From positions 1-45,107 of IMG/VR virus record IMGVR_UViG_3300036828_000984: a DNA stretch of 45,107 bases; one strand, 5' to 3'. The DNA is from a virus. The notes beneath the pieces are model-generated. The model was not told the DNA's origin and made no database searches. It saw only the letters and a program-made list of their open reading frames with translations. Each line of letters begins with the position of its first letter. Position 1 is the first letter of the stretch. A program made the position numbers and the translations under genes. Shown here one piece after another: positions 437-29,680 of the stretch.

Positions 437-495
437 AAAAAGGGTGCGAGCCCGGCAGCCGGCCGCTGGGTGACACAATGCGCTTGGCCGGGCTC
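437..495 (+). repeat. 30-nt-loop hairpin, copy 7a
   Basis: Stem GAGCCCGGC (448-456) pairs perfectly with GCCGGGCTC (487-495). The loop is exactly 30 nt, starts with A, ends with TG and has TGGGTGACA at loop positions 11-19. Read on the minus strand the hairpin is followed, after GCACCC, by five T (437-441), so it may also terminate the minus-strand transcript of the membrane protein gene. Confidence 0.8.
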
Positions 496-499
496 GCGT

Positions 500-544
500 G
501 CGGTCGCAGTCCAATTTGGGTGACACGAGGACGTTGGCGACCGC
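500..544 (+). repeat. 30-nt-loop hairpin, copy 7b
   Basis: Stem GCGGTCGC (500-507) pairs with GCGACCGC (537-544) around a 29-nt loop that starts with A, ends with TG and contains TTGGGTGACA. It is in tandem with copy 7a, four bases apart, with an unrelated stem. The two stems differ in sequence while both are fully paired, which is covariation. Confidence 0.8.
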
Positions 545-639
545 GCGGCCAGCGTAAACCGAAAGCGCGAGGTGGCACAAGCAAGGCCGGCCGGCGGTGG
601 GGCCGCTGGTCGGCAATGCGCTGCTCATCGTTTCTGGGC

Positions 640-1453: not shown

Positions 1454-1472
1454 CCCCGCAACAATCTCAGAT

Positions 1473-1785: not shown

Positions 1786-1797
1786 GCCCCGCAACAA

Positions 1798-3357
1798 TCA
1801 GGTAGGCCGGACTTCGATTCCGGGGGCGTTCCACGGCGTGGCGGCGAGGTACCGCTTGACGCTTGCGGGGAAACCGACGCACGCCCAAAGCACCGGGCAT
1901 GCGGGCTCCGGGCCAAGCTCGGCTTCGGGCTCGATTTCAAGATCGGTGAAGCACACGATCAGCGACGCGTCGCTCAATTCCGTTCGCACGTAATCGAACA
2001 ACGGCGCCATGCACGTGCCGCCACCGCCCTTCGGGTCGAACTCGATGTCGTCGCCACAGCGATACTCGTCGATTCGCGTAGGCGCGACGTCGCCGTAGAT
2101 AACGACCAGCTCGTCGATGATCCGCTCATCAAGCGCCGCCTGACATTCGAGCTTGATCGCTTCCAGCGCGCCCGGATACCAAGTCACCGAGCCCGACGTG
2201 TCGATCAGGAAGACGGCCTTATTGATGCCATCGCGCATCGTGCCGGGCAGATAAAGCCCGGACGAAACGAACCGGCGATTAGGCCTATTCCACGTCTCTT
2301 GAGTCGTGGCGCCGTGATCGAACCAAGCGCGCAGAACCTCCCGCCAGTCTTGCGGTGGGTGATCGGCCCGCTCGATTTCGCGGGCCACGTGACCGGGAGC
2401 GGTGCCACGCTTCGCCGCCAACATGGCGGCTTGGCGGAAAACGCGTTCCCACTTGGCGTCTTCGTTCGCGATCTCGCCGAGATCGTCGGAGGCATCGAGC
2501 ACTTCGCCGCAGCCGCCGGGATCTCCGGACGACCGTGGGTCGCGACCTTCGCCTTCGGCTGGCATGCCGCCGGCGCCCGTGCCGTCGCCGCTGCCGTCGC
2601 CTTCGGCCTCGCCCTTGGTCTCGCCAGCGCCTTCGCCGGTGCCTTCGCCCGGCTGGCCATCGTCGCCGCCCGGAGCGTCGCCGCCCTGGTCGCCGTCGCC
2701 TTCCTGTCCGGGAGTGTCGCCACCTTGTTCGCCCTCGCCGTCCTCATCGGATTTTTCTTCGTCACCCGACTGGTCGGCGCCCTCCTGCGCATCGGCGTTT
2801 CCTTCAGCGTCATCGGCATCGTTGCCGTCGTCGCTTTCGTCGTCGTTTTCATCTTCGCTTTCGTCCGGGGACTGCTCAGGAGATGACTCGTCTTCGGCTT
2901 CCTCCTGCCGTTTCCGTGCTTCTTCCGCTTCCTCGATTTCGAGGGTCCGGTAAACGTCTTCCGCGGACATGCCGCGAAACCGCTCATCGAGAAAAGCATC
3001 TTCGGGCAACGTGACGCCCGAATCGACGAGATCGATGTTGATCGCAAAGTCGGTCGCCTTGTTCCAGCGCATCGAGTCACGGCTGCCGCGCCGCGTATGA
3101 TGGCGGCGAACGTCGTGTTCGTTTTCGTGGAGTTGGACGCCGACGGTTTCATCAAACGACATGCCGTTGATGAATTCGGGATTGAAGTAGTGGACCTTGC
3201 CGTTTGTTGCCATCGTCGGAAACTGCCGACTCGGCTTCGGCTCGACCTGTCCAAGTGCGACGCCGTAGAACGTATTTGTGAGAACGATCTCGGCGCGCGC
3301 TCGCGCGATGCGCTCAATCGCTTTCACCGTAGCTTCATCATGGATGAAGTTTTTCAT
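1798..3357 (-). CDS. Metallopeptidase-like / VWA protein (DUF2201 type)
   Basis: 519 aa. The N-terminal part carries VQLHENEHDVRRHH, an HExxH zinc-binding motif at residues 77-81, in the context of the putative metallopeptidase domain of DUF2201 proteins. A very acidic, Glu/Asp/Gly-rich spacer (roughly residues 155-290) follows. The C-terminal domain contains FLIDTSGSV near residue 385, the MIDAS-like D-x-S-x-S of a von Willebrand A fold. Proteins of this type pair with MoxR ATPases as a metal-dependent chaperone or remodelling pair, and a MoxR gene lies two genes upstream. The substrate in this phage is unknown. The leader fixes the start at 3357. Confidence 0.85.
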   Translation of the reverse strand: MKNFIHDEATVKAIERIARARAEIVLTNTFYGVALGQVEPKPSRQFPTMATNGKVHYFNPEFINGMSFDETVGVQLHENEHDVRRHHTRRGSRDSMRWNKATDFAINIDLVDSGVTLPEDAFLDERFRGMSAEDVYRTLEIEEAEEARKRQEEAEDESSPEQSPDESEDENDDESDDGNDADDAEGNADAQEGADQSGDEEKSDEDGEGEQGGDTPGQEGDGDQGGDAPGGDDGQPGEGTGEGAGETKGEAEGDGSGDGTGAGGMPAEGEGRDPRSSGDPGGCGEVLDASDDLGEIANEDAKWERVFRQAAMLAAKRGTAPGHVAREIERADHPPQDWREVLRAWFDHGATTQETWNRPNRRFVSSGLYLPGTMRDGINKAVFLIDTSGSVTWYPGALEAIKLECQAALDERIIDELVVIYGDVAPTRIDEYRCGDDIEFDPKGGGGTCMAPLFDYVRTELSDASLIVCFTDLEIEPEAELGPEPACPVLWACVGFPASVKRYLAATPWNAPGIEVRPT

Positions 3358-3444
3358 TGTTGACTCCATTTCGAGTTGACCGCGCGTTGCAAGCGCGCGG
3401 AGTGCAGTGAACCGCACTACGAGGCGGCGCGCTTAGGCGCCGCC
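3358..3444 (-). promoter_or_regulatory. Triple-hairpin leader, copy 4
   Basis: Minus-strand order: GGCGGCGC/GCGCCGCC (3423-3444), AGTGC/GCACT (3401-3418), CCGCGCG-CTTGCAA-CGCGCGG (3380-3400), then AAATGGAGTCAACA and ATG. Here the upstream ATG is in frame and would add MEST. Confidence 0.8.
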
Positions 3445-3456
3445 CTTAGTGCCGTC

Positions 3457-4347
3457 TTAGCCAAGCAATGCCTCGACATCTTTCAGAATGTCGTCGGCGC
3501 TCTTGGCAACCGATTCGCGAACCGTCTCATGCTCGCGAAGCGTCTTGACGTCTTCGACCGTTAGCTCGCTCCTGATCCGAGCGACAACCTTGTCAAAGTC
3601 CGGGTTTTCGTCGAAGTTGAAATGCGGCAGCATCTCTGCCAATTCGGCGACGTGCTCGACAGTGCTCTTGTTGAAGAAGCACTTTTTGCCGTCGGCCGAC
3701 TTGCCGTAGCTTTTCAACTTCATCGCGAGATGGCCGACCACTTCCTTGATCTGATCGACCGAATGTTGGAAGGCGTCGCGCTTAACCGCGGCCATCGACT
3801 CTTCCACCTCGCGCTTGATGTCTGCGATGGTGTTAGCGTCGAGAACGTCGGCGCGGAAGTCTTCGGCATCGGGGAGAGGCAGCGTCCGCAAGCTCAGCTT
3901 GAATTTTTCGCGGATCTCTGAAGGAGTTGGATAATCCTTCGGATCAAACATGCCGTTGAGCTTGGCTTTGCGCTCGGCGACGTAGGTTGGATATTCGCGG
4001 CAAAACTCATCGACCACGTCCTCAAATTCGCGGGCGATCTTGCGGAACTTGCTGGCGAATTCCTCGTGCAACGCGTTCGGCAGAATGCCAACGCCCTCGC
4101 TCCACGGCTTCGTATAGGTGTGGAGCAGCTCGCGCGCGCTGCCAGTGGCACGGGTGACCGCTTCGAGCCGATGGGCTTCGAGGAGGAGCTTGTTGTAGCG
4201 GCCCGCGTCTTGCGAGGCGCCGTGTTGATCGTTCACCTCTTTGGTGATCTTCCGATCAAGCTTTCGCGCCGTCCAAGCGGAGGTCTTAACCTCGACCAGC
4301 ACCGCCTTGCGGCGAAGCGGAGAGGCAACTTTGTTGGTGTTCGTCAT
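3457..4347 (-). CDS. DUF3150-like protein
   Basis: 296 aa beginning MTNTNKVASPLRRKAVLVEV, then KTSAWTARKLDRKITKEV. The N-terminal pattern (a basic head, V-x-x-W-x-A-R-K-x-D) and the long helical body resemble DUF3150 proteins, which often sit beside MoxR and VWA genes in phages. It probably works with those two neighbours; no catalytic motif is visible. The start at 4347 follows the leader. An in-frame ATG at 4362 lies inside the Shine-Dalgarno block and is less likely. Confidence 0.6.
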   Translation of the reverse strand: MTNTNKVASPLRRKAVLVEVKTSAWTARKLDRKITKEVNDQHGASQDAGRYNKLLLEAHRLEAVTRATGSARELLHTYTKPWSEGVGILPNALHEEFASKFRKIAREFEDVVDEFCREYPTYVAERKAKLNGMFDPKDYPTPSEIREKFKLSLRTLPLPDAEDFRADVLDANTIADIKREVEESMAAVKRDAFQHSVDQIKEVVGHLAMKLKSYGKSADGKKCFFNKSTVEHVAELAEMLPHFNFDENPDFDKVVARIRSELTVEDVKTLREHETVRESVAKSADDILKDVEALLG

Positions 4348-4436
4348 AGTATGTGACTCCATTTTTCAGAACGCCCCTGCAAGGGGGGCGAGTGCTCGGA
4401 TTGAACACTGCAAGGCCGCCCCGGTTTAGAGGCGGC
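4348..4436 (-). promoter_or_regulatory. Triple-hairpin leader, copy 5
   Basis: Minus-strand order: GCCGCC/GGCGGC (4415-4436), AGTGTTC/GAGCACT with one mismatch (4391-4409), CGCCCC-CCTTGCA-GGGGCG (4372-4390), then AAAATGGAGTCACATACT and ATG. The upstream ATG is in frame (MESHT). Confidence 0.75.
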
Positions 4437-4460
4437 AATGCGCTGCTCGTCCATTTGTTG

Positions 4461-4500
4461 AAAAAGGGCGCCCGGCCAAGGGTTGAATTTGGCCGGGCGC
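4461..4500 (-). terminator. Rho-independent terminator with ATTCAACCC loop
   Basis: On the minus strand GCGCCCGGCCAA pairs with TTGGCCGGGCGC (12 bp) and is followed by CC and five T. It ends the MoxR transcript. Its loop, GGGTTGAAT on the plus strand, resembles the conserved loop of the 30-nt-loop hairpins and matches the loop of the terminator at 19932-19964. Confidence 0.85.
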
Positions 4501-4501
4501 A

Positions 4502-4547
4502 GCGGTCGCAATCACCGTATGGTTGACATTGGGCCGTTGGCAACCGC
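4502..4547 (+). repeat. 30-nt-loop hairpin, copy 8
   Basis: Stem GCGGTCGC (4502-4509) pairs with GCAACCGC (4540-4547) with one C/A mismatch, around a loop of exactly 30 nt that starts with A and ends with TG. The core is TGGTTGACA instead of TGGGTGACA, at the same loop position. It lies between the stop codon of the MoxR gene and its terminator, with the loop motif on the plus strand, opposite to the gene. Confidence 0.7.
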
Positions 4548-4553
4548 ATGCCG

Positions 4554-5600
4554 TCAAGCGGCACTCTGAAGGATATACGCCTGATGGTTGACCGTCCAGT
4601 CACCATAAGCGGCCGTGTTCTTCAGCGAGTCGTCGCGCGTCACCGCATCGTGCACAAGTAGCAAGGGGTAGTCGCCGGTGAGGCGATCAGCGTACTTGCA
4701 GATATTCGCGAAGTTGGCGCGCGTTGCCATCCGGGCGAGCCCGGTGCAGGTCGCGTACAGTTGCGAGCGGTCGGTCGGTATCGGCGCATTCGATGGATTT
4801 TTTATGATCGCATCAAGCGAGCCGATCGACTGATAGAGCTGAATGAACCCATTCAACTCGCCGGCAACGTCGGCGCCGATCAGTCCCGCGAAAAGCTTTT
4901 GCCGCAGCGCCACGTTGGCGACGGCGACGTACTTGGAGCATTTCGCAAGCGAGCGGGGAGTCGGAAAGGCATTCTCATCCCCTCGCGGCATCCGGTGCAA
5001 AATCTCTTCGCGCCGGAACCTGACAAACGCGACCAACTCTGGCGCGATGCCGTTCGAATTCGCCCACTTCACCCACGCATCCACGGTCGGCACGCAAGTG
5101 ATATGCGCAAACCGGTTTCGCGCCTGCGTCGGCATGCGCTGGGCGCTGGCGCGGTCGATCATGCGGTTGCCGGCCGCGATGACGCGCCAGCCCGGAGGCA
5201 GGCGATAATCGCCGACGGTGCCGTACAGGATCAAGCCGCCGAGCACCGCCTGCATTTGCGGGGACGCTTGGTTGTACTCATCGCAGAACAGGTACCCTTC
5301 GGGACCGTCACGATCTTCGCGCGGCAGTTCGTCCGGCACCAACCATTTAGTCGTGTTGGTTTTCAGATCGGCGACCGGAATGCCGCGAAGGTCCACTGTG
5401 TCGCGTAGTGCGGCGTGGAATTCGATCATCGGGCGGGTTTTCTTTGCCGCCAATTGCCGACCAAGGTCGGTTTTGCCGATGCCCGGAGCGCCCCACAGAA
5501 AGACGTTGTCGCCCGCGTCGAGGTAAGCTTCGAGCAGTTCGGCCGCTTCGTCCATCGCGACCGGAATCTCGGTCGATGGGACAAGTGCGGTAGTCGTCAT
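4554..5600 (-). CDS. MoxR-family AAA+ ATPase
   Basis: 348 aa. Walker A GAPGIGKT is at residues 37-44, Walker B YLFCDE at about 103-108, and a sensor-1 asparagine lies in AAGNR near residue 150. The body fits the MoxR/CobS group of AAA+ ATPases, which remodel or insert metals into partner proteins together with a VWA protein. The partner is probably the VWA protein encoded two genes downstream. It is cytoplasmic, with no signal or membrane segment. The start at 5600 follows the shared leader. Its transcript ends at the terminator at 4461-4500. Confidence 0.9.
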   Translation of the reverse strand: MTTTALVPSTEIPVAMDEAAELLEAYLDAGDNVFLWGAPGIGKTDLGRQLAAKKTRPMIEFHAALRDTVDLRGIPVADLKTNTTKWLVPDELPREDRDGPEGYLFCDEYNQASPQMQAVLGGLILYGTVGDYRLPPGWRVIAAGNRMIDRASAQRMPTQARNRFAHITCVPTVDAWVKWANSNGIAPELVAFVRFRREEILHRMPRGDENAFPTPRSLAKCSKYVAVANVALRQKLFAGLIGADVAGELNGFIQLYQSIGSLDAIIKNPSNAPIPTDRSQLYATCTGLARMATRANFANICKYADRLTGDYPLLLVHDAVTRDDSLKNTAAYGDWTVNHQAYILQSAA

Positions 5601-5681
5601 TGTTGACTCCATTTTTAGGTGACCGCGTTGCAAGCGCGGCGTGTTCGATGAACACGGAAAGGCCCCGGCCGAAGCCGGGGC
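5601..5681 (-). promoter_or_regulatory. Triple-hairpin leader, copy 6
   Basis: Minus-strand order: GCCCCGGC-TTCG-GCCGGGGC (5662-5681), GTGTTC-ATC-GAACAC (5641-5655), CCGCG-CTTGCAA-CGCGG (5623-5639), then AAAATGGAGTCAACA and ATG. The upstream ATG is in frame (MEST). Confidence 0.8.
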
Positions 5682-6524: not shown

Positions 6525-7610
6525 ATGACCCAGCAAATCGCCAGATTGGTACCGGAAACCCAGTCTTTTGCGCGGCCAAATCCAGGGCTTTCGATCGCCC
6601 GCGCGGCCATCGCAACTGGGATGACGCGCATCGATCGCTCGAAGAGTGCCACAGAGCACGCGTTGCAGCTTTGGCCGTTCGATCAAACGGCGGCCATCCT
6701 CACGCGCGCGGCCACGGCGCCGTTGACGCTCTCTGGGACCGGGCTGGTCGAAGTTGCCACCGCCGTGTTGCCGGCGCTTGTGCCGGTTTCGGCCGCAGCG
6801 AAAGTCTTTTCGGCTGGGCTCAGCCTTGCTTGGGACGGTGCGGGAGCGATCATCATTCCCAACGTTGCGCCACCAAATACGGGAGTGAGTGCGTTCGTTG
6901 CCGAAGGGATGCCGAAGCCGGTCGTGATGGGCGCCACCACGGGCGCGCGCCTCGACCCGCACAAAATTGCGCCGATCGCGGTGATCAGCTCGGAGCTGTT
7001 TTCGCAGGCATCGATCGAAACGATAATGCAACGCATGCTCGCGGAGGTCGCCGCGGTCTCGCTCGACACCGCGTTGTTTTCCAACGCGCCCGCCGACGCC
7101 ACGCGGCCGGCCGGTTTGTTGAATGGGATTACGCCGATCACGGCATCTACAAATGCCGATCTGACTGAGGCGATGACCGCAGACATCATTGCGCTCGGCA
7201 GCGCCATCGCGCCGGTCGCCGGCGGCAGCAACATCGTGTTCGTAACAAACATGGGGCAGGCCCTCGCGCTCCAACTGAGAACCTATGGTAGCTTCGGCAC
7301 GTACGGGGAATTTGGGTCTGCCGTTTTTACAAGCTCGGTGATTCCGCCCGGCACCGTGATCGCGATTGCGATCAATGCGCTTGTGAGCATCTTCGGCGTT
7401 CCGTCATTCGAGACATCAACGCAGGCAACGCTGCATCTCGAAGGCACGACGCCGCTGCAAATCGGTACGCCCGGAAGTCCGCCGACCGTGGCGGCGCCGA
7501 CGCAATCGATGTTCCAAAGCGCGAACATCGGCATCAAACTGTATCAGCCGGTAACCTGGGCACTTCGGTCGCCGCAAGCGGTCGCGGTCGTCGCAGGAAC
7601 GAAGTGGTGA
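6525..7610 (+). CDS. Minor capsid protein (HK97-fold paralogue)
   Basis: 361 aa. Its C-terminal two thirds align by eye with the major capsid protein encoded at 12856-14292: both have R-P-x-G-L-L-N-G-x-T-P-x-T-A and Q-A-T-L-H-x-E-x-T-T-P-L-Q-I-G-T-P-G, both have VAAP-x-Q-S, and both end near a W. It therefore has the HK97 capsid fold but lacks a protease domain and most of the N-terminal helix-rich arm. A second capsid paralogue may form vertices or a minor shell position, as gp24 does beside gp23 in T4; that role is inference. The start ATG has only a weak Shine-Dalgarno sequence. Confidence 0.8.
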   Translation: MTQQIARLVPETQSFARPNPGLSIARAAIATGMTRIDRSKSATEHALQLWPFDQTAAILTRAATAPLTLSGTGLVEVATAVLPALVPVSAAAKVFSAGLSLAWDGAGAIIIPNVAPPNTGVSAFVAEGMPKPVVMGATTGARLDPHKIAPIAVISSELFSQASIETIMQRMLAEVAAVSLDTALFSNAPADATRPAGLLNGITPITASTNADLTEAMTADIIALGSAIAPVAGGSNIVFVTNMGQALALQLRTYGSFGTYGEFGSAVFTSSVIPPGTVIAIAINALVSIFGVPSFETSTQATLHLEGTTPLQIGTPGSPPTVAAPTQSMFQSANIGIKLYQPVTWALRSPQAVAVVAGTKW

Positions 7611-7618
7611 TGAGGAGC

Positions 7619-7688
7619 GGCCCCGGACACTTCGTTCCTGGGTGACAATGGTAGGATGGTCCGGGGCCTTGATCGCGGTTCGCACCGC
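7619..7688 (+). repeat. 30-nt-loop hairpin, copy 1, with tail hairpin
   Basis: Stem GGCCCCGGAC (7619-7628) pairs with GTCCGGGGCC (7659-7668) around a 30-nt loop that begins with A, ends with TG and carries TGGGTGACA at loop positions 11-19. A short hairpin GCGGT-TCGC-ACCGC (7675-7688) follows. It lies nine bases after the minor capsid stop codon. There is no T-run on either side. Confidence 0.85.
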
Positions 7689-7718
7689 AACCGCCGAATA
7701 AATTAGAGCGGAATTCCT

Positions 7719-8660
7719 ATGGAGGCAATCGCGCTCGAAGGCGGCGAGGCGCGGCAAGCGGCGTGGGCGGCCGTCCGCGCGCGGGCAATCGCCGAATTGG
7801 GAAAGGCAGGAGGAGGCGGCCACGACGTCGCCGACGAACCGCGCGACGAGCATGGCAGATGGACCGACGGCGGCGGCGAAGGCGAAGGCGGGAGCGCAGC
7901 CGAAGTCGCAGCCGCGCATGTTCGCTCCGTCTTGCAAACCGGTCGCGCGGTAGCAAAAGCACTCGGGTATGACGCGAGCAAAGTGTCGATTGGCGCCCAG
8001 GAATCTCCGGATTCCAAATTCACGCTTAATGGTAAGGAATATCTGGCGGCAGGATTGGCTTATACTCACGGACCAAACAAGGGGATGATCAAGCTTTTCC
8101 CAACACGAATAACTGAGGAGTTTACGAAAGGGGTTGCTGCACACGAGGTCGAGCATCAGAAGTTTCAGGATGCGCTCGATAAATATCAGGAAGATGTGAA
8201 AAAAATTTCGGCCGATCCCGGTCCGCCGCCTGATCCAAACGGCCAATACTATTGGCAACGAAACGGCGGCACGGATGCAATGATGACTGCGGACGGGAAG
8301 TTGCGGCCGCCTTACGACAAAAAATATCCGTACTATTCAGCGTTGCACGAAGCGTATTTTCAGCATTCGATTAGCGATCATTTTGCCGCTTCCGATGGTG
8401 TCTCTGATTACAGCTTCGAATATTGGAAAGGATTTAAGGCTGGCACTGTGAATACAGAACTCGCCATGCACGAAACGCTCGCGGAGATGGGTCGCATCAA
8501 ATACACCACTGGGAAATTTCCTGATCACATTGGCGAGCGCATCATTTCCTATCGCGGCGAGGACAAGCCGAAGCCGTCGCAGGCAACAATGGACGCCAAT
8601 GCAAAACTCTGGCGCGATCTCTATCGCACCGTCGAAAAGGTTTATCAGGACAAGGTATGA
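7719..8660 (+). CDS. Putative zincin-type metallopeptidase, head-associated
   Basis: 313 aa. After an N-terminal helix (QAAWAAVRARAIAEL) comes DEPRDEHGRWTDGGG at residues 39-53, a motif typical of phage head proteins. The body has AAHEVEHQKF with HExxH at residues 142-146, and further His/Glu candidates in SALHEAYFQHS (near 207) and MHETLAEM (250-257), so a zinc peptidase is plausible. The gene overlaps the next one by ATGA and follows hairpin copy 1. By analogy with polyvalent phage proteins, I infer that it is packaged in the head and injected. The peptidase call rests on the motif only. Confidence 0.55.
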   Translation: MEAIALEGGEARQAAWAAVRARAIAELGKAGGGGHDVADEPRDEHGRWTDGGGEGEGGSAAEVAAAHVRSVLQTGRAVAKALGYDASKVSIGAQESPDSKFTLNGKEYLAAGLAYTHGPNKGMIKLFPTRITEEFTKGVAAHEVEHQKFQDALDKYQEDVKKISADPGPPPDPNGQYYWQRNGGTDAMMTADGKLRPPYDKKYPYYSALHEAYFQHSISDHFAASDGVSDYSFEYWKGFKAGTVNTELAMHETLAEMGRIKYTTGKFPDHIGERIISYRGEDKPKPSQATMDANAKLWRDLYRTVEKVYQDKV

Positions 8661-11488
8661 TCCAAAGCGCAACAGTGGATGACCGACCAGCGCTGATTGC
8701 GTTTCTCGACAACAAATTCGAAATTGTTGCCGACGAACATTCCGCGAGCTTGATCAAGGTTACCTTCACCGATGATCAGGGCGGGAATGTCTTCCTCCAG
8801 CCAGACAAGCCAAGTGAAAGCAAGGCGCTAAAAGCTTTCGATCCCGATGAGCCCCGCGACGAGGAAGGCAAGTGGACGTCCGGCGGCGGCAGCGACGATG
8901 GTAAGGGCGAGCATCCCGGCGAGGGATATTCCAAGCATGCGTATGTCGACAAGCACGGCGTAATTCACACCTCGAACGTCTATGACGCGCAGCGCGCGTT
9001 GTTTGAAAATCGCAAGGTTGAACTAAAACAACCGAAGCAGATTTCGACTCTGATCAAGCGGCTGGGAGAGACCGCGGCCGAGATGGCCGAACACGGCGAA
9101 GCAGCGCCGGTCTTCAATCTCTGCAACGTGAGCGTCGAGGGGACTAACCTATTTTGCTCTGAGCAAAAGGGCATTCCCCGTGCGGAAATGCCGGTCATCC
9201 CGGCCAAGCAAACCAAAAAGTTCATCAAATATTTGAAGGAGGAAGGCTACAAGGTCGAAAAGGATAACGAGTACGCTGCCAATCTTCGCGCGACGCAATC
9301 CGAGATCGATGGCGCGAAGGTCGCGACCCAGATGGCGCGCATCGAAAAGGACGGGTTCTACAAGCGGCTGGTGATCTCGAAGGACGATTACATTCTCGAC
9401 GGTCACCACACGTGGGCGGGCGCGCTGGGCATCGATGCGCAGGACAACAATTTGCATGATGATAAGCTCATCAAGATCGCGCGCGTCAATATCAGCATCA
9501 CGAAGCTGCTCGAAGAAGCTGAGAAGTGGACCAAAGCGCACGGCATAGCGAAGAAGCCCGCGGGCCAGAAGAGTGAGGCGGCCCCGGACAGGCCAATTTT
9601 GGGTGACACGCGTACTCTGGTCCGGGGCCGGATCGCGGGTCGCACCGCGACACCCGATAATGCGGGACGGCAACAAGAATGGCAAGCCGTCCGCGCCCGC
9701 GCGCTGGCGGCGCTGCGCGAGTTCGACGAGAGCAAACACCCACGCGTGCCCGCGGGCTCGCCCGAAGGTGGTCAGTTCGGCACGAGCGGCGGCGGAGGCG
9801 AAGGCGCTGCGAGCGCGGAAGAACCGAAGCTCGATCCCGAAGTCATCAACGTCGGCGGCGACGAATGGAATAGGGCCACTGCGCGGAAGCTCGAAAGAGA
9901 ATATCAGAGCGTGCGCCCGAAGCTCGAAACGATCGCCGCGGAATCGGTCGGCCAATCGGCGGCACAAGCGGCGCCGGCGGGCGATGATGACGAGGAAGCC
10001 GACGGCGATCCGCCGTATGAGCCCGAAGAGTGGGACGCGCTGAGCAACAGCGCTCAGTCGCAGGTCGAAGAAGCGTACGTCTCTTGGGCCAAGAGCGACT
10101 ACGAGAGCAGCGAAAGCGATTATTGGTACGAAGAGTATGCGCCGCACGAAGCGCGCGAGAAGATTGCAGAAGAATTCAACGATGGGAGCGACCGGGAATG
10201 GGCGGAGGATGCATTAGCGAAGCTAGATCTCCCAGAGCGTGGACCGTTCACCAATGAGCAAATTCTCAAAGCGGTGACGATCAACTTCGAGGGCAACCCA
10301 GGCGGCTCGCTGAAGGATCCGGAATTTGAATGGGATGATAAATATCTCGACGAGCTGAAGTCGCCAGATCCGGCGCAAATCAATTTGCCGGGCTTCGAAA
10401 CAGTCGAGGGGCACGAGCTGTTGACCGACGACATGCGAGCCAAAATCGAAAAGGTGCTTGAGAAGGCATTCGATAAGAAGGGCAACGACGTGAGCGGTTC
10501 AATGGATGTGCCGCAATGGGTCTCGGAGAACGCCGCAGAGTCGGCTGGGGAGGGCTTCGGCCAAATGGACGACGCTGAAAAGTTTGAGTGGGCAAAGGCA
10601 CATACGAGCATCATCGAGGATGAGACGACGCCGGGCACCGGTGATTATGCGGAGGTGCCGGCCGAAGTCGCCGGCATGGAAATCGATGCTCTGCCGAAGA
10701 ATTTCGATCCGCTGAATGAATCGGATGGCACGGATTATCGGCGGACGCAGAAGCTCGCGCGCTATCTCTCGGTCGAGCGCACCATGCAGGTGCTCAATGA
10801 GCGCAAGCTGCCGGAACAGTTCGGGCACGGCGAGATCGGGCAAAATCAGTTGCGCGCGCGCATCGCAAAGATTGACAGCAAATTGTGGGGCGCGTGGAAG
10901 GACAGCTCGGTCGCGGACGATGGCAAGCTGCTGCAACTGGCAACGTCGGACGAACTGGGCGGCCGGATGAATCTGAGAACAGCCACAGATCTTGATCCGG
11001 GCGGCATCAAGGCCCGTGCAAATAAATACTACGAAGACATCGGCGGCTATGCCGGCATCAAGGCCTATGTCCGCGCGAAATGGGAAACAACACAATATTT
11101 GCTCGACAAGGGTCACATTCAGACGCTCGATCTCTATCGCGGGATCGATATGGAGCCGGAAAAATACAACAAGACCTTCAGGCATTATCCTGCGCATCAG
11201 CAGATTCAAGGCTACAGATACATGCCGACACTGCCGGTCGAGCGCAACGGCGCGGCTTCGACCACGACCGACGTCAGTGTTGCAAACAATTGGAAGGCTA
11301 CCCGTACAACGCAAATCACCTTGCGCGCGCAAGTGCCGCGCACCGCTGCGGTCTCGGTTCCAGCTTACGGAATCAACGTTCACAGTGAACACGAAGTTGT
11401 CGTGGCCGGAACCGCTTGGCGCGGCTGGGATGCGTGGGCCGGAAAGGCTCCGCCATTCCACATCGTTCCGTTGCAGCATGCGGCATGA
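8657..11488 (+). CDS. ParB-like / ADP-ribosyltransferase-like polyvalent protein
   Basis: 943 aa in one open frame. DEPRDEEGKWTSGGG lies at about residues 63-77. A ParB/sulfiredoxin-like domain is marked by YILDGHHTW (residues 245-253). Hairpin copy 2 is then read through in frame (about 309-325), followed by a second head-protein motif (KHPRVPAGSPEGGQFG, about 360-376) and a long acidic region. The C-terminal domain has the R-S-ExE layout of arginine-type ADP-ribosyltransferases: R828 in LYRG, S868 in AASTTT, and E911-x-E913 in HSEHEVVV. T4 Alt and ModA are the known precedents for phage ARTs. It may be one fused protein or two products. It overlaps its neighbours by ATGA at both ends. Confidence 0.7.
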   Translation: MIQSATVDDRPALIAFLDNKFEIVADEHSASLIKVTFTDDQGGNVFLQPDKPSESKALKAFDPDEPRDEEGKWTSGGGSDDGKGEHPGEGYSKHAYVDKHGVIHTSNVYDAQRALFENRKVELKQPKQISTLIKRLGETAAEMAEHGEAAPVFNLCNVSVEGTNLFCSEQKGIPRAEMPVIPAKQTKKFIKYLKEEGYKVEKDNEYAANLRATQSEIDGAKVATQMARIEKDGFYKRLVISKDDYILDGHHTWAGALGIDAQDNNLHDDKLIKIARVNISITKLLEEAEKWTKAHGIAKKPAGQKSEAAPDRPILGDTRTLVRGRIAGRTATPDNAGRQQEWQAVRARALAALREFDESKHPRVPAGSPEGGQFGTSGGGGEGAASAEEPKLDPEVINVGGDEWNRATARKLEREYQSVRPKLETIAAESVGQSAAQAAPAGDDDEEADGDPPYEPEEWDALSNSAQSQVEEAYVSWAKSDYESSESDYWYEEYAPHEAREKIAEEFNDGSDREWAEDALAKLDLPERGPFTNEQILKAVTINFEGNPGGSLKDPEFEWDDKYLDELKSPDPAQINLPGFETVEGHELLTDDMRAKIEKVLEKAFDKKGNDVSGSMDVPQWVSENAAESAGEGFGQMDDAEKFEWAKAHTSIIEDETTPGTGDYAEVPAEVAGMEIDALPKNFDPLNESDGTDYRRTQKLARYLSVERTMQVLNERKLPEQFGHGEIGQNQLRARIAKIDSKLWGAWKDSSVADDGKLLQLATSDELGGRMNLRTATDLDPGGIKARANKYYEDIGGYAGIKAYVRAKWETTQYLLDKGHIQTLDLYRGIDMEPEKYNKTFRHYPAHQQIQGYRYMPTLPVERNGAASTTTDVSVANNWKATRTTQITLRAQVPRTAAVSVPAYGINVHSEHEVVVAGTAWRGWDAWAGKAPPFHIVPLQHAA
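9580..9649 (+). repeat. 30-nt-loop hairpin, copy 2, inside an ORF
   Basis: Stem GGCCCCGGAC (9580-9589) pairs with GTCCGGGGCC (9620-9629), with a 30-nt loop carrying TTGGGTGACA. A tail hairpin CGCGG/CCGCG follows (9634-9649). The whole block is translated in frame as AAPDRPILGDTRTLVRGR within the ParB/ART ORF, exactly between the two domain halves. Confidence 0.85.
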
Positions 11489-11805
11489 AAACAACAAAGC
11501 CAAAGATCGAGCCCGAGCCCATCGACATCTTGCAGATGGAGCTGGATGAAAAGCTTCCATATTGGCTCTCGCCGGCCGCCAGATACGGCGATAGCGAGGA
11601 AGCACGGAAGAAGCGGCGCAAGCTCTATCAGCAAAAGTGGGCAGAGCGCGGAAAGGGCAAGGGCAAAAAGAAGGGTGACGAAAAGGCGGCCCCGGACAGG
11701 CGAGCATTGGGTGACACGGTGACACTGGTCCGGGGCCGCCATGTTGATCGCGGCTCGCGTCGCGACGCCGGTAAAGTGCAGCAAAATTCGCGAGGAGGCA
11801 AGATC
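11485..11805 (+). CDS. Small charged protein or N-terminal extension of protease ORF
   Basis: Starts MKTTKPKIEPEPIDILQMEL at an ATGA overlap with the preceding stop. It continues with a basic stretch (EEARKKRRKLYQQKWAERGK, then a Lys/Gly-rich run). No stop codon occurs before hairpin copy 3, which reads AAPDRRALGDTVTLVRGR, nor before the next start at 11806, so its end is undefined. The feature end is the base before that start. It may be a separate small gene that lost its stop when the hairpin arrived, or a real 107-residue extension of the protease. The strong Shine-Dalgarno sequence at 11806 argues for the first view. Confidence 0.45.
11688..11767 (+). repeat. 30-nt-loop hairpin, copy 3, inside an ORF
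   Basis: Stem GGCCCCGGAC (11688-11697) pairs with GTCCGGGGCC (11728-11737), with a 30-nt loop carrying CATTGGGTGACA. Those first 11 bases, CATTGGGTGAC, are identical to the plus strand of leader copy 1 (117-127). A weak tail hairpin (TCGCG/CGCGA) follows. It is translated in the same frame as copy 2 (AAPDR, then LGDT, then LVRGR). Confidence 0.85.
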
Positions 11806-14292
11806 ATGCCGCTACGCAAACCGAAGAAAGGCGAGAGCCAAGACGCCTGGATGCAATATTGCATGCACGAATTGGCGACGAGCGAGACCGATCGCCCGCA
11901 AGACCAAATGGTCGCGATCTGTCTGACGCAATGGCGCGAGCGCGACAAAAAGGCGTTGGCCGATGCGCCGAAGCCGACGAAGGGCGAGACTTACGACGGC
12001 TTTATGTCCCGCTGCAAAAAGCAGAGCGACGAGCACTCCTGCGAGACGCGCTGGAATGAACATGCGCGCGAACAGGAGCAACATCCCGGTCCATGGGAAC
12101 CGTCAGAGAAAGTCGCGCGCATCCTAAAACAGATCGATCCGCCCGACGATGATGAATCGCACGAAGACTTTTTAGATCGCTGTATGGATCAGCTTTCCGA
12201 TGACGAACCGGAAATGAGCGACGATGATGCGCAAGAGGCATGTCAGATGATATGGGAAGATCGCAGCGCGAAGAAGATCGTGCACAAAGTCCACGCCGCG
12301 CCGGTGCAGGGCCGTGCTTTCATTCTATCAGATGAAACGCCGGATCGCCTTGGCGATATCATCAGCACGGAGGGCTGGCAGGTCGAGGCGTTCCGGCAGA
12401 ACCCCATAGCTTTATTCAATCATAATTCGAATTTTCCGATCGGAAGATGGCACGACGTCCGCGTCGATAACAAAGCATTGCGCGGCGAGCTTGAACTTGC
12501 CGCCGAAGGCATTTCCCCGCGCATAGATGAGATCAGGAAGCTCGTGGATGCCGGCATTCTGAAAGCGGTCAGCGTCGGTTTTCGTCCGAGCAAAAGCGAG
12601 CCTCTCAATCAGGCAGATACATCGTTCTTTGCTCCGCAACGCTATCTACAACAAGAACTGGTCGAGTGTTCGCTCGTATCGGTTCCCGCCAATCCCAATG
12701 CGCTGGCCGTGGCCAAATCGCTTGGGCTCTCTCCCGCAACGCTGGATATCGTCTTTGCCGAGCTAGGCACTAAGGACGGTCGATCCAGGCGTCGCGGCTT
12801 AACCGGCGAGCATGCCGCACATCGTCGTACGCAACAGAAAGAAAGGACGAGCGCCATGTCTACGCTCGGTCAAAGAATAGCGGAAACTCAGACCCGCGTT
12901 ACAGCTCTGAGGGACGAACTCGATGAGCATCTTAACTCCTTGGACGACACCAATATCAGCGACAAGGATCTCGAAACGACCAACGATCTGACGATGCAGT
13001 TGGGTCAGGTCAACAAGCAGCTTGCTTCGTATCAGGAAGCCGAGCGGCAGATTGCCGGCACCATGAACGGCGGCGGCTCACGTCAGGTTGCGGTTCGCAC
13101 CGCAGAGCCCCCACGGCCGGCGGCGGCTGGCGGTAACGGTCAAGCGGACCCGACGCCAGCACGGGCGACCGTGTTTGCCGCGCCGGGGAGCCCCGAGCCC
13201 AAGCCTCTTGATCTGATGGTGCGGGCCGGCGTCGTGATGCTGCGGGCGAAGGTCTTCCAGCGTACTCCAGAAGACGAATGCCGCCGCAGCTACGGTGAGC
13301 ACGAGCCTACGATGCGGACGGTCGAGTGGATGATCCGCGCGGCCAGCGCACCGGCGATGACCAACGTACCCGGATGGGCGCAGGAATTGGTCACCCAGAT
13401 CCAGGGGCCGTACATGGACCTGCTCTATCCGAAGTCGGTGTATCCACGGCTCGCGGGCATGGGCATGTCGCTTGACTTCGGCCGGAATGGACGCATCGTC
13501 ATCCCGACCAGAGCGGCCGTGCCGACCATCGCCGGATCGTTTGTTGGAGAAGGCCAACCGATCCCGGTAAGGCAGGGGCACTTCACCTCCGTCACGCTGA
13601 CCCCGAAAAAGTTGGCCGTGATTTCAAGCTACACCAAAGAAATGGAGGACTTCAGCACGCCCGCGATCGAGGCGCTGCTGCGTGACGCGATCCAGAACGA
13701 CACCGCCATCTCTCTGGACAGCGTCTTGTTAGATGCCAATCCGGCGACCACCGTTCGGCCACCCGGATTGCTCAACGGCGTGACCCCGCTCACCGCGACG
13801 GCCGGCGGCGGCTTCCTCGCGATCATCGGCGACATCAAACTGCTCACGACCGCATTGCTCACGCCGACGCGCGGCAATGTTCGCAATCCGGTCTGGTTGA
13901 TGAACCCGGTTCAGGTCAATTCTCTGAAGCTCACGGTCGCTCCAAACACGGGCGACTTCGTGTTCGCGGAGCAAATGGCAGCGGGAGGACTCAACGGTTA
14001 TCCGGTGATCGATTCCGGTACCGTGCCGCCCGGAAGTGTCACGTTGTTGGACGCTGCGGACTTCGTGGCAGTGGGTGCAGAGGCCCCACGCTTCGAGCTG
14101 AGCGACCAAGCGACATTGCATTTTGAAGACACCACGCCGTTGCAGATCGGCACACCGGGAACGCCTCCGGTTGTTGCTGCGCCGGTGCAATCGCTCTGGC
14201 AAACAGATAGCCTCGCGTTGAGGTTGATCATGCGCCTCAACTGGTACGTCCGAAGGCCGGTCGTTGCAAATATCGCAGCAGTGACGTGGTAA
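11806..14292 (+). CDS. Prohead protease fused in frame to major capsid protein
   Basis: 828 aa from ATG 11806, which follows GAGGAGGCAAGATC. Residues 1-150 hold three repeats of a D-x-(F/W)-M/L-x-x-C ... C-x-x-x-W pattern (DAWMQYC, DGFMSRC, EDFLDRC). The protease is of the HK97 gp4 (peptidase S78) type: catalytic His206 in LFNHN, Ser256 in KAVSVGF, and a conserved acidic residue in LVECSLVSVP. It is followed by a coiled-coil delta-like region and the HK97-fold capsid. The protease should cleave itself and the scaffold region during head maturation. An internal start at 12856 probably supplies free capsid protein. Confidence 0.85.
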   Translation: MPLRKPKKGESQDAWMQYCMHELATSETDRPQDQMVAICLTQWRERDKKALADAPKPTKGETYDGFMSRCKKQSDEHSCETRWNEHAREQEQHPGPWEPSEKVARILKQIDPPDDDESHEDFLDRCMDQLSDDEPEMSDDDAQEACQMIWEDRSAKKIVHKVHAAPVQGRAFILSDETPDRLGDIISTEGWQVEAFRQNPIALFNHNSNFPIGRWHDVRVDNKALRGELELAAEGISPRIDEIRKLVDAGILKAVSVGFRPSKSEPLNQADTSFFAPQRYLQQELVECSLVSVPANPNALAVAKSLGLSPATLDIVFAELGTKDGRSRRRGLTGEHAAHRRTQQKERTSAMSTLGQRIAETQTRVTALRDELDEHLNSLDDTNISDKDLETTNDLTMQLGQVNKQLASYQEAERQIAGTMNGGGSRQVAVRTAEPPRPAAAGGNGQADPTPARATVFAAPGSPEPKPLDLMVRAGVVMLRAKVFQRTPEDECRRSYGEHEPTMRTVEWMIRAASAPAMTNVPGWAQELVTQIQGPYMDLLYPKSVYPRLAGMGMSLDFGRNGRIVIPTRAAVPTIAGSFVGEGQPIPVRQGHFTSVTLTPKKLAVISSYTKEMEDFSTPAIEALLRDAIQNDTAISLDSVLLDANPATTVRPPGLLNGVTPLTATAGGGFLAIIGDIKLLTTALLTPTRGNVRNPVWLMNPVQVNSLKLTVAPNTGDFVFAEQMAAGGLNGYPVIDSGTVPPGSVTLLDAADFVAVGAEAPRFELSDQATLHFEDTTPLQIGTPGTPPVVAAPVQSLWQTDSLALRLIMRLNWYVRRPVVANIAAVTW
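12856..14292 (+). CDS. Major capsid protein from internal start
   Basis: 478 aa beginning MSTLGQRIAETQTRVTALRD. AAAGGA lies eight bases before the ATG, inside the protease-capsid frame. The first 100 residues are a coiled-coil delta-like domain, likely removed by the protease. A Pro/Ala-rich linker follows, then the HK97 capsid body with RPPGLLNGVTPLTA and ATLHFEDTTPLQIGTPGTPP. The ratio of capsid to protease needed in a head makes internal initiation sensible, but whether both starts are used cannot be seen from sequence alone. Confidence 0.7.
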   Translation: MSTLGQRIAETQTRVTALRDELDEHLNSLDDTNISDKDLETTNDLTMQLGQVNKQLASYQEAERQIAGTMNGGGSRQVAVRTAEPPRPAAAGGNGQADPTPARATVFAAPGSPEPKPLDLMVRAGVVMLRAKVFQRTPEDECRRSYGEHEPTMRTVEWMIRAASAPAMTNVPGWAQELVTQIQGPYMDLLYPKSVYPRLAGMGMSLDFGRNGRIVIPTRAAVPTIAGSFVGEGQPIPVRQGHFTSVTLTPKKLAVISSYTKEMEDFSTPAIEALLRDAIQNDTAISLDSVLLDANPATTVRPPGLLNGVTPLTATAGGGFLAIIGDIKLLTTALLTPTRGNVRNPVWLMNPVQVNSLKLTVAPNTGDFVFAEQMAAGGLNGYPVIDSGTVPPGSVTLLDAADFVAVGAEAPRFELSDQATLHFEDTTPLQIGTPGTPPVVAAPVQSLWQTDSLALRLIMRLNWYVRRPVVANIAAVTW

Positions 14293-18494: not shown

Positions 18495-18544
18495 TGATCG
18501 CGGCAACGCAGGGCTGGGTGACAAGAGTGGAATGGCCGCGATCA
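18495..18544 (+). repeat. 30-nt-loop hairpin, copy 6 (different stem)
   Basis: Stem TGATCGCGGC (18495-18504) pairs perfectly with GCCGCGATCA (18535-18544). The loop is exactly 30 nt, starts with A, ends with TG and contains CTGGGTGACA at the same position as in copies 1-5, whose stem is unrelated. This stem replacement with a fixed loop is strong evidence for selected structure. Confidence 0.85.
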
Positions 18545-20484: not shown

Positions 20485-20672
20485 AACGCACTTCCGGCTT
20501 TTCCGGCTTTTCGTATGTAACAAACAAATCAACATAGATGGAACGCGCACATCTTTATCAGATCGTGCAGGTCTTGACACGATGGTTGCTGATCTGATCG
20601 CGAACTATCTGATAGATGCGATCAGAGATCTGCCTGCGGTGTGCTGGTCAAAATTATTTTTATGGGAAGGGT
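20485..20672. other. Intergenic region with short repeats
   Basis: Contains the TTCCGGCTTT tandem repeat, a short frame (ATG 20538, about 19 codons) and several overlapping GATCTGATC/GATCAGATC words between 20555 and 20635. No convincing gene is visible. A 128-codon frame beginning at 20582 crosses hairpin copy 4 and is only open by chance; its C-terminal part is the membrane protein listed separately. Confidence 0.4.
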
Positions 20673-20740
20673 GGCCCCGGACATGTTTGTTTTGGGTGAC
20701 AAGCATCGATTGGTCCGGGGCCGTCCAGTCGCCTGGACGG
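20673..20740 (+). repeat. 30-nt-loop hairpin, copy 4, with perfect tail hairpin
   Basis: Stem GGCCCCGGAC (20673-20682) pairs with GTCCGGGGCC (20713-20722); the 30-nt loop carries TTTTGGGTGACA. The tail hairpin CCGTCCAG-TCGC-CTGGACGG (20721-20740) is a perfect eight-base stem with a TCGC loop, the clearest of the set. Confidence 0.85.
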
Positions 20741-25835: not shown

Positions 25836-25863
25836 ACACTTTTGGAAAAAGGAGGACACTTCG

Positions 25864-26229: not shown

Positions 26230-26231
26230 GA

Positions 26232-26750: not shown

Positions 26751-26914
26751 ACCCGGACGAATTCATTCTGAATTGCTACCGGCTCGCTGATCGCTACCAC
26801 ATGGATCCAGAATATTTGTTAGACATGCCGATGTCGCGCGTCGCGATGCACGTCCACTACACCGTCAAGCTCATCGAGGCGCAGGCGCGCGCTCGCGGGA
26901 AGAGTGATGGCTGA
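26232..26914 (+). CDS. Tail assembly chaperone, -1 frameshift long form
   Basis: Slipping at T-TTT-TTT (26720-26726) joins codons 1-165 of the short form to a second frame reading YLGSGAVVDPDEFILNCYRL and ending ARARGKSDG, about 227 aa in total. The second part has no good start of its own. This copies the gpG/gpGT arrangement of lambda and related pairs in Mu-like phages. The end overlaps the tape-measure start. Confidence 0.8.
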
Positions 26915-29585
26915 GCAAGAAGAACTTCAGCTTCGCGTAACGCTGGACGATCAGGCAAGTGCGCAGCTTTCCGCGTTGCGTGGCCAGCTTGATCAGATGC
27001 GCCAAGCTGGTCCCGTCACTGCGCAAGTGCAGCAGGCATCTCCGCAGATCGTTGCTGCCATCGGTGACGTGGTGAAGCAACTCAGCGCGATGGCGCAACA
27101 GATTGGTCAACTGCCAGCGCAAATTACTACGGCAATGTCTTCGGCCGTGCAGGGATTGCAGCAGGTACAGACCCAACTGACGCAAATTGGCACGCAAGTG
27201 CAGCAGAATGCGCAAGCGGTCGCAGCCGTGCCCGGACATGTGGCTCATGGCGCGCAAGCGCTCGGCTCGGCAATTCGGCAGGCTGGCTTCTTTGGTGGCA
27301 TCGCGGCTGGCGTTACCACGGAGTTCATCGGTCAACTTAAGGCACTTGGTAACAATCTCCTCGAACGTGCCACCGACTTCAAGGGCCTCGCCAACTCGAT
27401 GGAGAATCTTGAGACTCATGCCCGCGGCGTCGGCCAGACAATGACGGGATATAAGGGGCTAACGGAGCAACTCCAATTAGGAGGTATGAGCGCAGAGCAA
27501 GCGCAAAAAGTGGTCAGTCAATTTTCTGATCTGAGTTTGGAATTGAAACAATACGGTGCGGAGAACGCGCCGACTACCCATCGGCTCATACAGGATACTG
27601 ATCCGGCAACCACAAACTACATCTTGAAGACGATGAAGGCGATGGAGGGCGCCCCGATAGAGAAGCAGATCAATCTGTGGACCGAGCTGCGGGAGAACAT
27701 GCAGCAGACGATGCAGGCGGCGGGCAAGGGTGAGGGATTCGAGGCGGCGTGGAAGGAAATTTCGCAGCGCGCGGGCATTGATCCTGAAGCGTTTGAAAGA
27801 CTGAAGCAGGGCGTACGCCTTAAGAAAGAACTTGATGCGCCGGGACGTGAGGCAAATTATCAGGCGCGTACGGAGGAAACGAAGAAGTTTACTTATGAGA
27901 GCGCGAAAGCGCAATTGCTCTGGAAAGACATCGGGGAAAGCATTGCCGCGAGCCTGTTGCATGGTCTCGGACTCAACAATGCCATGGGCGAGTTGAATAC
28001 TTGGTTAGAACGTATTCGTGTTGATGCTGAAGCATTTGAAAAAGCGTGGCGAGATGTTGATTTTGATCACGCATTGGAACAGCTCGGGAAGATGGAACCG
28101 GCGATCAAGCCATTCCTAGATGAGATCAGGACATTCGTTACAAAGGATCTAAAAGACCTTGAGAAAAGTCTTAATAGCATTCTGGAATGGGAACACGGCA
28201 TTGGCAAAGCCAGCAAGGAACCCGATGTAGGAACCAAGATCCAACGTCGCGAACTGGAACAGCGTGGGTGGAGTGATGAGCAGATAGATGAATACTTTAA
28301 GAAGCATCCGTTGCCGCCTGATGCTCGAAAGCCATATACCTACGACGATTTGAAAAAGTGGTTGCATGGAGGAAAAGAAGCATCGCCGCAGTCACAGGAG
28401 CCCAGCGCTATAGAGAAATATTTTGGACGCAAATTTGGTCCTCGGACAGGTGTGCCTGAAAGCGACATACGCGAGTACGAAGGCGCGGCTCCTCCGGCTC
28501 CTCCGACTCCTCCGACTCCTCCGACTCCTCGGACTCCTCCGACGTCGTCAACAGATTTGACAGCGGAGCAACAAGAAAGATTGCAGCGTCGCTACACGCG
28601 AGGCGGGGCAGGGGCGCCACCTCCGCAGCAGCCGACGGGGACAGAGCTGACACCAGAGCAACAAGAGCAATTGCAGCGTGGCGGAGGCGAGGCACCTCAG
28701 CAGCCGACGCAGGGCAAGCCAATCATCGTTCCTCCAATCGATGTGAAACCGCAGCAACCACGCCCCCCGCGCGATCACACACCGCACTCATTGCGCGAGC
28801 GGCAGAAACGTGAGGAGGAAGAGCAGCAAAAGCGGGAGCAAGATGAGCGAGAGCCAGAGCTTAAACCTTTAGGGCCATTTGATCCAATCCCGACTCCGCC
28901 TCCTCCCGGTCCGAACGAGGGGAGGGCTGCTAATGTTGATCCATCACAAAGGTTTCCTCAGTTTCCTAGATCGAGCCGCGTCGAGGATTATCGGCCTCCT
29001 GGCGGCGGTGAATATCATTCCATGCTTGATCCCGATGCCACAGCGAAACAGCAGCAATTTCTCAAGGAGTATAACGAGCGACTGAAAATGCCAGAGGGAC
29101 AAGCTTGGCTGAATACGAAAGAACCGAGCTTTCCTACTGGGTCGCCGCTTGAAAAGCTCATAGAAGGAGCAGACAAATATATCAAAGGTGCGGTTGCGCA
29201 CAGTAGTCGTCGTCGCCTTGAGTCTTGGGGAAAGGCGTCGTCATCGCAGTTCGTGGGGACGGATGAAGCAGCAGATCAACCGTCGAGCTTTGAAAACCGG
29301 TTCGGCGTATGGCCTGGGATGGGCGCCGATAAATTGGATCAGACATCCGCGAAGCTCGACGAAGCCGCCAATCAAAACGTCAACATCAGCGGAGCTGGTA
29401 AAATTCAAGTCGATGTGCGCGCCCCGCCGGGTACCAGCGTTGCCGCGCAAAGCGACGGATTCTTCAAATCGACTGAGATCACTAGAATGACACAGATGAT
29501 GCCGGCGGACTTCGGGCCGGGGCCGGTGACGGGGGTAAGCGCTGGCCAAGGGGTCGCCGCCAACGGGACCGTGGGGGCTGCATAG
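26907..29585 (+). CDS. Tape-measure protein
   Basis: 892 aa from ATG 26907. The N-terminal 120 residues are Gln-rich helices with repeated QLPAQI/QVQTQLTQIG-type heptads. A hydrophobic segment follows (AGFFGGIAAGVTTEFIGQ, about residues 130-147), then long helical regions. The C-terminal third is unusual: a Pro/Thr block (PAPPTPPTPPTPRTPPTS), a repeated LT-A/P-EQQE-R/Q-LQR unit and a highly charged Arg/Glu/Gln stretch. Position after the frameshifted chaperone is diagnostic. It sets tail length and passes into the host envelope with the DNA. Confidence 0.8.
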   Translation: MAEQEELQLRVTLDDQASAQLSALRGQLDQMRQAGPVTAQVQQASPQIVAAIGDVVKQLSAMAQQIGQLPAQITTAMSSAVQGLQQVQTQLTQIGTQVQQNAQAVAAVPGHVAHGAQALGSAIRQAGFFGGIAAGVTTEFIGQLKALGNNLLERATDFKGLANSMENLETHARGVGQTMTGYKGLTEQLQLGGMSAEQAQKVVSQFSDLSLELKQYGAENAPTTHRLIQDTDPATTNYILKTMKAMEGAPIEKQINLWTELRENMQQTMQAAGKGEGFEAAWKEISQRAGIDPEAFERLKQGVRLKKELDAPGREANYQARTEETKKFTYESAKAQLLWKDIGESIAASLLHGLGLNNAMGELNTWLERIRVDAEAFEKAWRDVDFDHALEQLGKMEPAIKPFLDEIRTFVTKDLKDLEKSLNSILEWEHGIGKASKEPDVGTKIQRRELEQRGWSDEQIDEYFKKHPLPPDARKPYTYDDLKKWLHGGKEASPQSQEPSAIEKYFGRKFGPRTGVPESDIREYEGAAPPAPPTPPTPPTPRTPPTSSTDLTAEQQERLQRRYTRGGAGAPPPQQPTGTELTPEQQEQLQRGGGEAPQQPTQGKPIIVPPIDVKPQQPRPPRDHTPHSLRERQKREEEEQQKREQDEREPELKPLGPFDPIPTPPPPGPNEGRAANVDPSQRFPQFPRSSRVEDYRPPGGGEYHSMLDPDATAKQQQFLKEYNERLKMPEGQAWLNTKEPSFPTGSPLEKLIEGADKYIKGAVAHSSRRRLESWGKASSSQFVGTDEAADQPSSFENRFGVWPGMGADKLDQTSAKLDEAANQNVNISGAGKIQVDVRAPPGTSVAAQSDGFFKSTEITRMTQMMPADFGPGPVTGVSAGQGVAANGTVGAA
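28495..28545 (+). repeat. CTCCGA microsatellite in tape-measure gene
   Basis: About eight tandem copies of a six-base unit close to CTCCGA, coding for the PPT/PPR block. Slippage would change the length of the Pro-rich linker without shifting the frame. Confidence 0.7.
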
Positions 29586-29611
29586 GGCTGGCGTCCCGGC
29601 GTGAATAAAGT

Positions 29612-29680
29612 GGCCCCGGACACGGTGTAACTGGGTGACAGAACTGATGTGGTCCGGGGCCTGATCGTGGTCTTACACGA
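29612..29680 (+). repeat. 30-nt-loop hairpin, copy 5, with tail hairpin
   Basis: Stem GGCCCCGGAC (29612-29621) pairs with GTCCGGGGCC (29652-29661); the 30-nt loop carries ACTGGGTGACA. A tail hairpin TCGTG/CACGA (29665-29680) follows. It lies 26 bases after the tape-measure stop codon and fills the intergenic space before the gpN genes. Confidence 0.85.

Follow-up and report, generated by a model that had tools for sequence, protein, structure and literature searches.

Dispersed hairpins of a phage genome fragment as probable TIGR-type guide RNAs with matching sites in related phages

Introduction

What is encoded by a set of small hairpins that are scattered over 29 kb of a phage genome, with stems that change and still pair around an interior of almost constant length? 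The question is raised by the IMG/VR phage fragment IMGVR_UViG_3300036828_000984, the whole 45,107 bases of which were analysed and are called the window below, and which carries portal, head, contractile-tail and Mu-type baseplate genes. As judged from their sequence, the hairpins are almost certainly guide RNAs of the kind used by TIGR-Tas systems (Faure et al., 2025; PMC12045711), and syntenic sites in related phages, here called sisters, are very probably their natural targets. The dispersed guides would serve RNA-guided homing or exclusion between related phages, a reading to which we give a probability of roughly 0.7 and the mechanism of which we infer.

Anatomy of the hairpin units

All nine hairpins stand exactly where a sequence-only reading of the window had placed them and with the geometry that it had reported, including a loop of 29 nt in the copy at 500 and of 30 nt in the other eight; its count of eight copies has to be raised to nine. 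The motif described there is present on the plus strand in 9/9 window copies, in the copy at 4502 as TGGTTGACA. One fixed loop, as had been proposed, is not what the column counts of the copies give, which are C-A, nine free positions, TGGNTGACA, nine free positions and TG-G, so that the apparent 30-nt invariant resolves into two fully variable 9-mer spacers between fixed boxes and a fixed 9-mer. Read on the opposite strand, each unit has the form stem-CCA-N9-UGUCACCCA-N9-UG-stem, in which the two 9-nt spacers sit between a box C (CCA) and a box D (UG); both boxes are found in 9/9 window units and the spacers measure 9+9 nt, in one unit 9+8. The consensus repeats of TasR begin with UG (box D) and end with CCA (box C) around 9-nt spacers, and in a second TIGR form variable palindromic stems replace the edge repeat (PMC12045711).

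The element is not confined to the window. The motif as first described retrieves 53 distinct copies across other phage contigs, and a looser scan of about 200 contigs for CCA-N8-10-TG-N4-CCA-N8-10-TG within a stem of at least 8 bp finds 79 distinct units versus 0 in reversed sequence, 77 of the 79 with spacers of exactly 9+9 nt, a repeated geometry that is beyond chance. The selected structure with covarying stems that had been claimed is borne out, as stem pairs 4-8 are paired in 97-100% with 4-6 pair types each, compared with 44-46% when the 3' arms are shuffled. Palindromic, variable flanks of this kind take the place of edge repeats in stem-loop TIGR guides; the stem base is closed in 77/77 units by a pair between the leading C of CCA and the G of UG. 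Large-loop RNAs such as the skipping-rope motif had been suggested for comparison, and the absence of an Rfam match on any window copy in covariance searches, at curated thresholds and up to E 10, rules out this or another Rfam family.

Association with Tas proteins

In the hairpin-rich record L094, a protein of 353 amino acids that is flanked by at least seven units matches the PDB entry 9mty, and a profile built from 11 homologues of this protein finds 9mty with E 3.7e-22, TasH (21kl) with E 2.4e-11 and, weakly, IS621 with E 0.05. The 9mty chain has 331 amino acids and is deposited under an IS110 name; from the matching length of TaTasR, likewise 331 amino acids (PMC12045711), it appears to be the TaTasR of the TIGR paper. 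The hairpins do not qualify as an IS110 bridge RNA, which calls for a neighbouring IS110 transposase with a DEDD domain and for donor/target loops: the proteins linked to the units are much closer to Tas (9mty 3.7e-22 versus IS621 0.05), and there is one loop only.

Homologues of the L094 protein, which are Nop-domain TasA, occur in 12/34 hairpin-bearing phage records versus 0/34 control records, and nearly all tas genes of those records have units within about 1.5 kb that are co-directional with tas in the UGUCACCCA reading; in the tas-bearing record L245 the same scan detects no unit near tas. The association also holds in the other direction, as 61 TasA loci that were fetched by protein, without use of the hairpin, contain 83 units in the sense of tas, 1 against it and 0 in the reversed control, with units present in 33 of the 61 loci. 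Among isolates, TasA loci occur in Rhodoplanes elegans DSM 11907, the prophages of which (L330, L331) have TasA and seven units, and in Magnetospirillum molischianum DSM 120, and tandem arrays lie beside tas in the relatives L094, L126, L214 and L330. Rhizobium phage RHph_X2_25 has a Tas homologue and no units by the scan, and a search of plasmids for Tas homologues returned none. Because only a single unit in tas loci runs against tas, the units are assigned to the UGUCACCCA reading; the RNA most likely corresponds to the strand opposite to the one first reported, and the plus-strand reading is rejected.

Spacer replacement in sister phages

The genomes compared are metagenomic fragments, the sisters are few and shared ancestry makes the cases dependent. 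In orthologous units of sister phages, flanks and stems are kept and spacers are swapped. Around window unit 11688 the flanks are 78-89% identical to those of L096 and L167 and the spacers 22-33%, the level of unrelated 9-mers; for unit 18495 versus L096, the flanks are 87 and 91% identical and the spacers 22%. Unit 29612 retains most of both spacers in comparison with L013. It is the hypervariable 9-mers in a conserved scaffold that give the units their guide-like appearance.

Entire units come and go as well. In the sister sequence examined of L255, L256, L257 and L259 no unit is present, and unit 9580 lies within a segment of about 120 bp (9565-9687) that is missing from sisters L255 and L258. 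Gain or loss of this unit would alter the open reading frame (ORF) 8657-11488. The unit stands in frame in this long ORF, the PHROG match of which stops just before it.

Predicted targets in sister phages

The TasR target has 18 bp, with spacer A pairing with one strand, spacer B with the other, and cleavage leaving 8-nt 3' overhangs (PMC12045711), from which the order of a target was derived as spacer B followed by the reverse complement of spacer A. Non-overlapping 18-bp targets of this order occur at chance level across all contigs, except for unit 20673, which matches sister L096 at the syntenic position and also, 18/18 and again syntenically, L255 and L258. The units' own flanks show an excess of near-matches, and in several of these one base is missing where the spacers join; single spacer 9-mers compared with these flanks one at a time gave a null result. 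When the two half-sites were shifted over 11 offsets, -5 to +5, a peak was seen only at a 1-nt overlap, with 34 matches of at most 2 mismatches over 17 bp versus 2.9 for shuffled spacer pairs, and at this tandem geometry spacers A and B match opposite DNA strands. A target-independent check supports the 17-bp geometry, as in 20/32 window-family units versus 8.5 expected (p=2e-5) the ninth base of one spacer is complementary to the ninth base of the other, the strongest signal among 81 position pairs.

Among 16 units from four related phages, non-self phages contain a match with at most 1 mismatch in 9/16 (0.6 with shuffled spacers) and with at most 2 mismatches over the 17 bp in 13/16 (2.5 with shuffled spacers); unit 20673, with its 18/18 match, comes in addition to these 13. 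Perfect syntenic matches of 17/17 link L096 unit 7831 to L255, and L260 unit 8234 to L255 and L259. For most sister targets, which lie chiefly in structural genes, the distance to the unit's own syntenic position is about 130 bp to about 2.2 kb. These relationships bear on a role, implied by the sequence-only reading, of the hairpins as ordinary cis-acting structures of the plus-strand mRNA, such as a protein-binding hairpin, terminator or processing site, to which the position of several copies between late plus-strand genes might point. Such a role is next to negligible in probability, as both 9-mers are fully variable and replaced between sisters, the units are co-directional with tas on the other strand, and the half-sites match opposite DNA strands.

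Mismatched sites in the guides' own genomes

In the genome that carries the guide, all alignable sites have at least 2 mismatches or indels. Within the window (no strand assigned), the diverged self copy of the presumed target of unit 448 is at 606..622 with 3 mismatches, compared with 1 in sisters L260/L139; that of unit 7619 at 7596..7612, 7 nt from the unit, has 4; that of unit 9580 at 9269..9285 has 2, with 1 in sisters L257 and L258; that of unit 11688 at 12797..12813, in the major head protein gene, has 3, with 1 in L255, L256 and L257; and that of unit 29612 at 29870..29886 has 5, with 2 in L010 and L012. The self copy of the intergenic target of unit 20673, at 20521..20541, differs by indels. 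The guides might instead act on their own genome, with TasA directing regulation of late genes or genome structure and self mismatches being tolerated, and degenerate self matches do lie 40 bp to about 2.2 kb from many units. This is very improbable, as there are 2-5 mismatches or indels in the self sites, and the best sister site is the better one in 11/14 alignable cases, some of the sister sites being perfect matches.

Proposed homing or exclusion between related phages

Taken as a mechanism, homing or exclusion by dispersed guides would proceed as follows. Each hairpin would be the gene of a single stem-loop TIGR-type guide RNA, transcribed from the minus strand, and a Nop-domain Tas dimer would bind it at box C (CCA) and box D (UG). 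Each of the two 9-nt spacers would pair with a different strand of a DNA target of 17 bp, sometimes 18 bp, the ninth bases of both spacers sharing one central base pair in the 17-bp form. The guides would be scattered beside the loci that they address. They would be directed at the orthologous site in the genome of a competing relative, and the genome of the guide would be spared through its mismatched version of the site. In a co-infected cell the allele of the rival would be attacked or blocked; if the rival were cut or recombined at the site, repair from the guide-bearing genome would transfer the guide along with the resistant site.

Homing and exclusion alike predict that guide and resistant target are linked, since their separation by recombination would leave the guide's own genome exposed. 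Plain exclusion without homing, in which a TasA that lacks a nuclease binds and thereby stops the rival from being transcribed or replicated and linkage only prevents recombination from separating guide and resistant allele, accounts for the same target data, agrees with the nuclease-free appearance of the Tas next to the units and has a precedent in the competition between mobile genetic elements by blocking that was proposed in the TIGR paper (PMC12045711). It is unlikely as the whole explanation, since unit presence or absence at fixed syntenic sites fits the pattern of homing elements, in data that are not independent, and since the best-matched alleles mostly lack the unit, as homing expects and as simple gain and loss would also produce: sister alleles with at most 1 mismatch lack it in 15/17 cases versus 16/29 of the others (Fisher p=0.02, from hand-compiled and non-independent cases). 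Homing as the outcome is put forward tentatively, at somewhat less than even chances, with linked exclusion of rivals as the chief alternative. It is in the same measure conceivable, if doubtful, that the unit is a protein-free RNA-guided homing element of about 50 bp, the two spacers of which direct a Tas protein to the orthologous locus of related phages, and that it copies itself there with a resistant target and swaps spacers in a fixed scaffold.

A number of points weigh against homing or exclusion by TIGR-type guides. The largest gap is the missing tas gene, as searches by BLAST, profile and a hidden Markov model from about 50 loci found none in the 45-kb window or the sister fragments, an absence that is weak evidence because all these records are fragments. 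Orphan guides that use a Tas supplied in trans by host, prophage or co-infecting phage would explain that no window-family contig examined has tas; this is compatible with homing or exclusion between phages and, given how little an absence from fragments says, distinctly improbable. The TasA linked to units elsewhere look nuclease-free, with no nuclease domain seen, so that cleavage is not implied. Known TIGR guides form arrays beside tas (PMC12045711), from which layout the dispersed window units depart: no tandem array beside tas is present in the window, where one two-unit mini-array is accompanied by dispersed units. The 17-bp geometry was picked from 11 offsets after the data had been seen, it is unlike the 18-bp TasR target, and one unit fits 18 bp instead. 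The sole prospective exact search, in IMG/VR for the predicted target of unit 7619, gave no match. In 3.5 Mb of sequence, target matches for 88 units that belong to other phage families stay at chance level, a result that doubles as a negative control. Self sites do not differ significantly from the average sister (p=0.14), and wobble pairs on the plus strand, 15 A-C versus 10 G-T, do not decide the strand; a later excess of G-U in the stems is biased by the scan itself.

Arrangement of the units and neighbouring features

All nine window units lie on the minus strand in the UGUCACCCA reading, and their sole grouping is the mini-array of 500 and 448. Its first candidate guide unit, 500..544, has the spacers ACGTCCTCG and AATTGGAC (8 nt) and its second, 448..495, spacers A AGCGCATTG and B GCGGCCGGC; the mini-array is downstream of a minus-strand gene and is followed on the minus strand at 371..412 by a strong putative intrinsic terminator, a G+C-rich hairpin with T7, read from the sequence and by analogy with TIGR array ends (PMC12045711). 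The candidate unit 4502..4547 (spacers ACGGCCCAA and TACGGTGAT) has the loop UGUCAACCA. The units from 7619 to 29661 are antisense to late genes and comprise 7619..7668 (TCCTACCAT and GGAACGAAG), 9580..9629 inside the ORF discussed above (GAGTACGCG and AAATTGGCC), 11688..11737 (GTGTCACCG and ATGCTCGCC), 18495..18544 (TTCCACTCT and GCCCTGCGT), 20673..20722 (ATCGATGCT and AAACAAACA) and 29612..29661 (CATCAGTTC and GTTACACCG). A second small palindrome of the type TCGCGG..CCGCGA, which resembles the stem of unit 18495, is located 5' of several units in the RNA sense (7671-7690, 9631-9650, 11746-11765 and 29661-29681) and is possibly a promoter, processing or insertion signal.

Another dispersed element occurs in the sisters at several of the same intergenic sites (L255 13430-13990, L257 5821-6055 and 3675-3907, L258 1737-1968) and consists of a terminator-like hairpin (GGGGCACCG..CGGTGCCCC) and, after it, arrayed pentamers NNGCC in which NN varies. 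In the window, the minus-strand early genes at 120, 1373, 1707, 3354, 4350, 5597 and 5984 share a leader, detected as direct repeats, that ends in AAAATGGAGTCAC just before the starts, and at 1798-5633 (minus strand) genes for a DUF2201 metallopeptidase/VWA protein, a DUF3150 protein and an AAA ATPase stand in a row that resembles a MoxR-VWA type cluster. The major head protein domain (PHROG 617) is present in two copies, at 6525-7610 and 11416-14292, the second ORF also matching head maturation protease families, and at 40509-42167 tandem repeats, often 117 nt apart, are found in an ORF of 1212 amino acids with a glycine-rich domain.

Comparison with known systems

Genuine natural targets of TIGR-Tas eluded its discoverers, who left its biological role undecided (PMC12045711), and no report of natural TIGR targets was found in the PubMed Central literature, outside of which subscription papers and preprints largely fall. 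The spacer-target pairs with sister phages, the self mismatches and the linkage of guide and target make the role of TIGR guides directly testable and may provide a first lead to their natural use. They would add a dispersed, snoRNA-like arrangement to TIGR guides and suggest that homing endonucleases have an RNA-guided equivalent in conflicts between phages.

The closest likeness is to the stem-loop array type of TIGR-Tas (Faure et al., 2025; PMC12045711), with two spacers of about 9 nt between CCA and UG, a variable palindromic stem, a Nop-domain TasA with adjacent units in related records and a terminator after the mini-array. The window differs in that its units stand singly, spread across 29 kb and for the most part antisense to late genes, in that the fragment lacks tas, and in that the putative targets apparently span 17 bp and have one shared central base, where the known target has 18 bp. 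With the dual-repeat type (TasR, TasH) the units share the 9-nt loop repeat from UG to CCA and the logic of dual-strand targeting, but they have no edge repeats and no array, and no nuclease domain is seen in the linked Tas. The IS110 bridge RNA likewise has a Nop/IS110-C-type partner and a split guide with two half-sites, whereas here one hairpin holds two spacers for one target, with no transposase or donor loop. Box C/D snoRNAs resemble the units as dispersed single guide genes with box C/D motifs; in the units no K-turn is seen, and DNA half-sites on both strands take the place of an RNA target. Phage homing endonucleases and intron-encoded nucleases (e.g. PMC11620839), finally, would have in common with the units polymorphism at fixed sites, attack on the element-less or rival allele and resistance of the own allele, with the difference that here specificity would lie in RNA, in an element of about 50 bp that encodes no protein.
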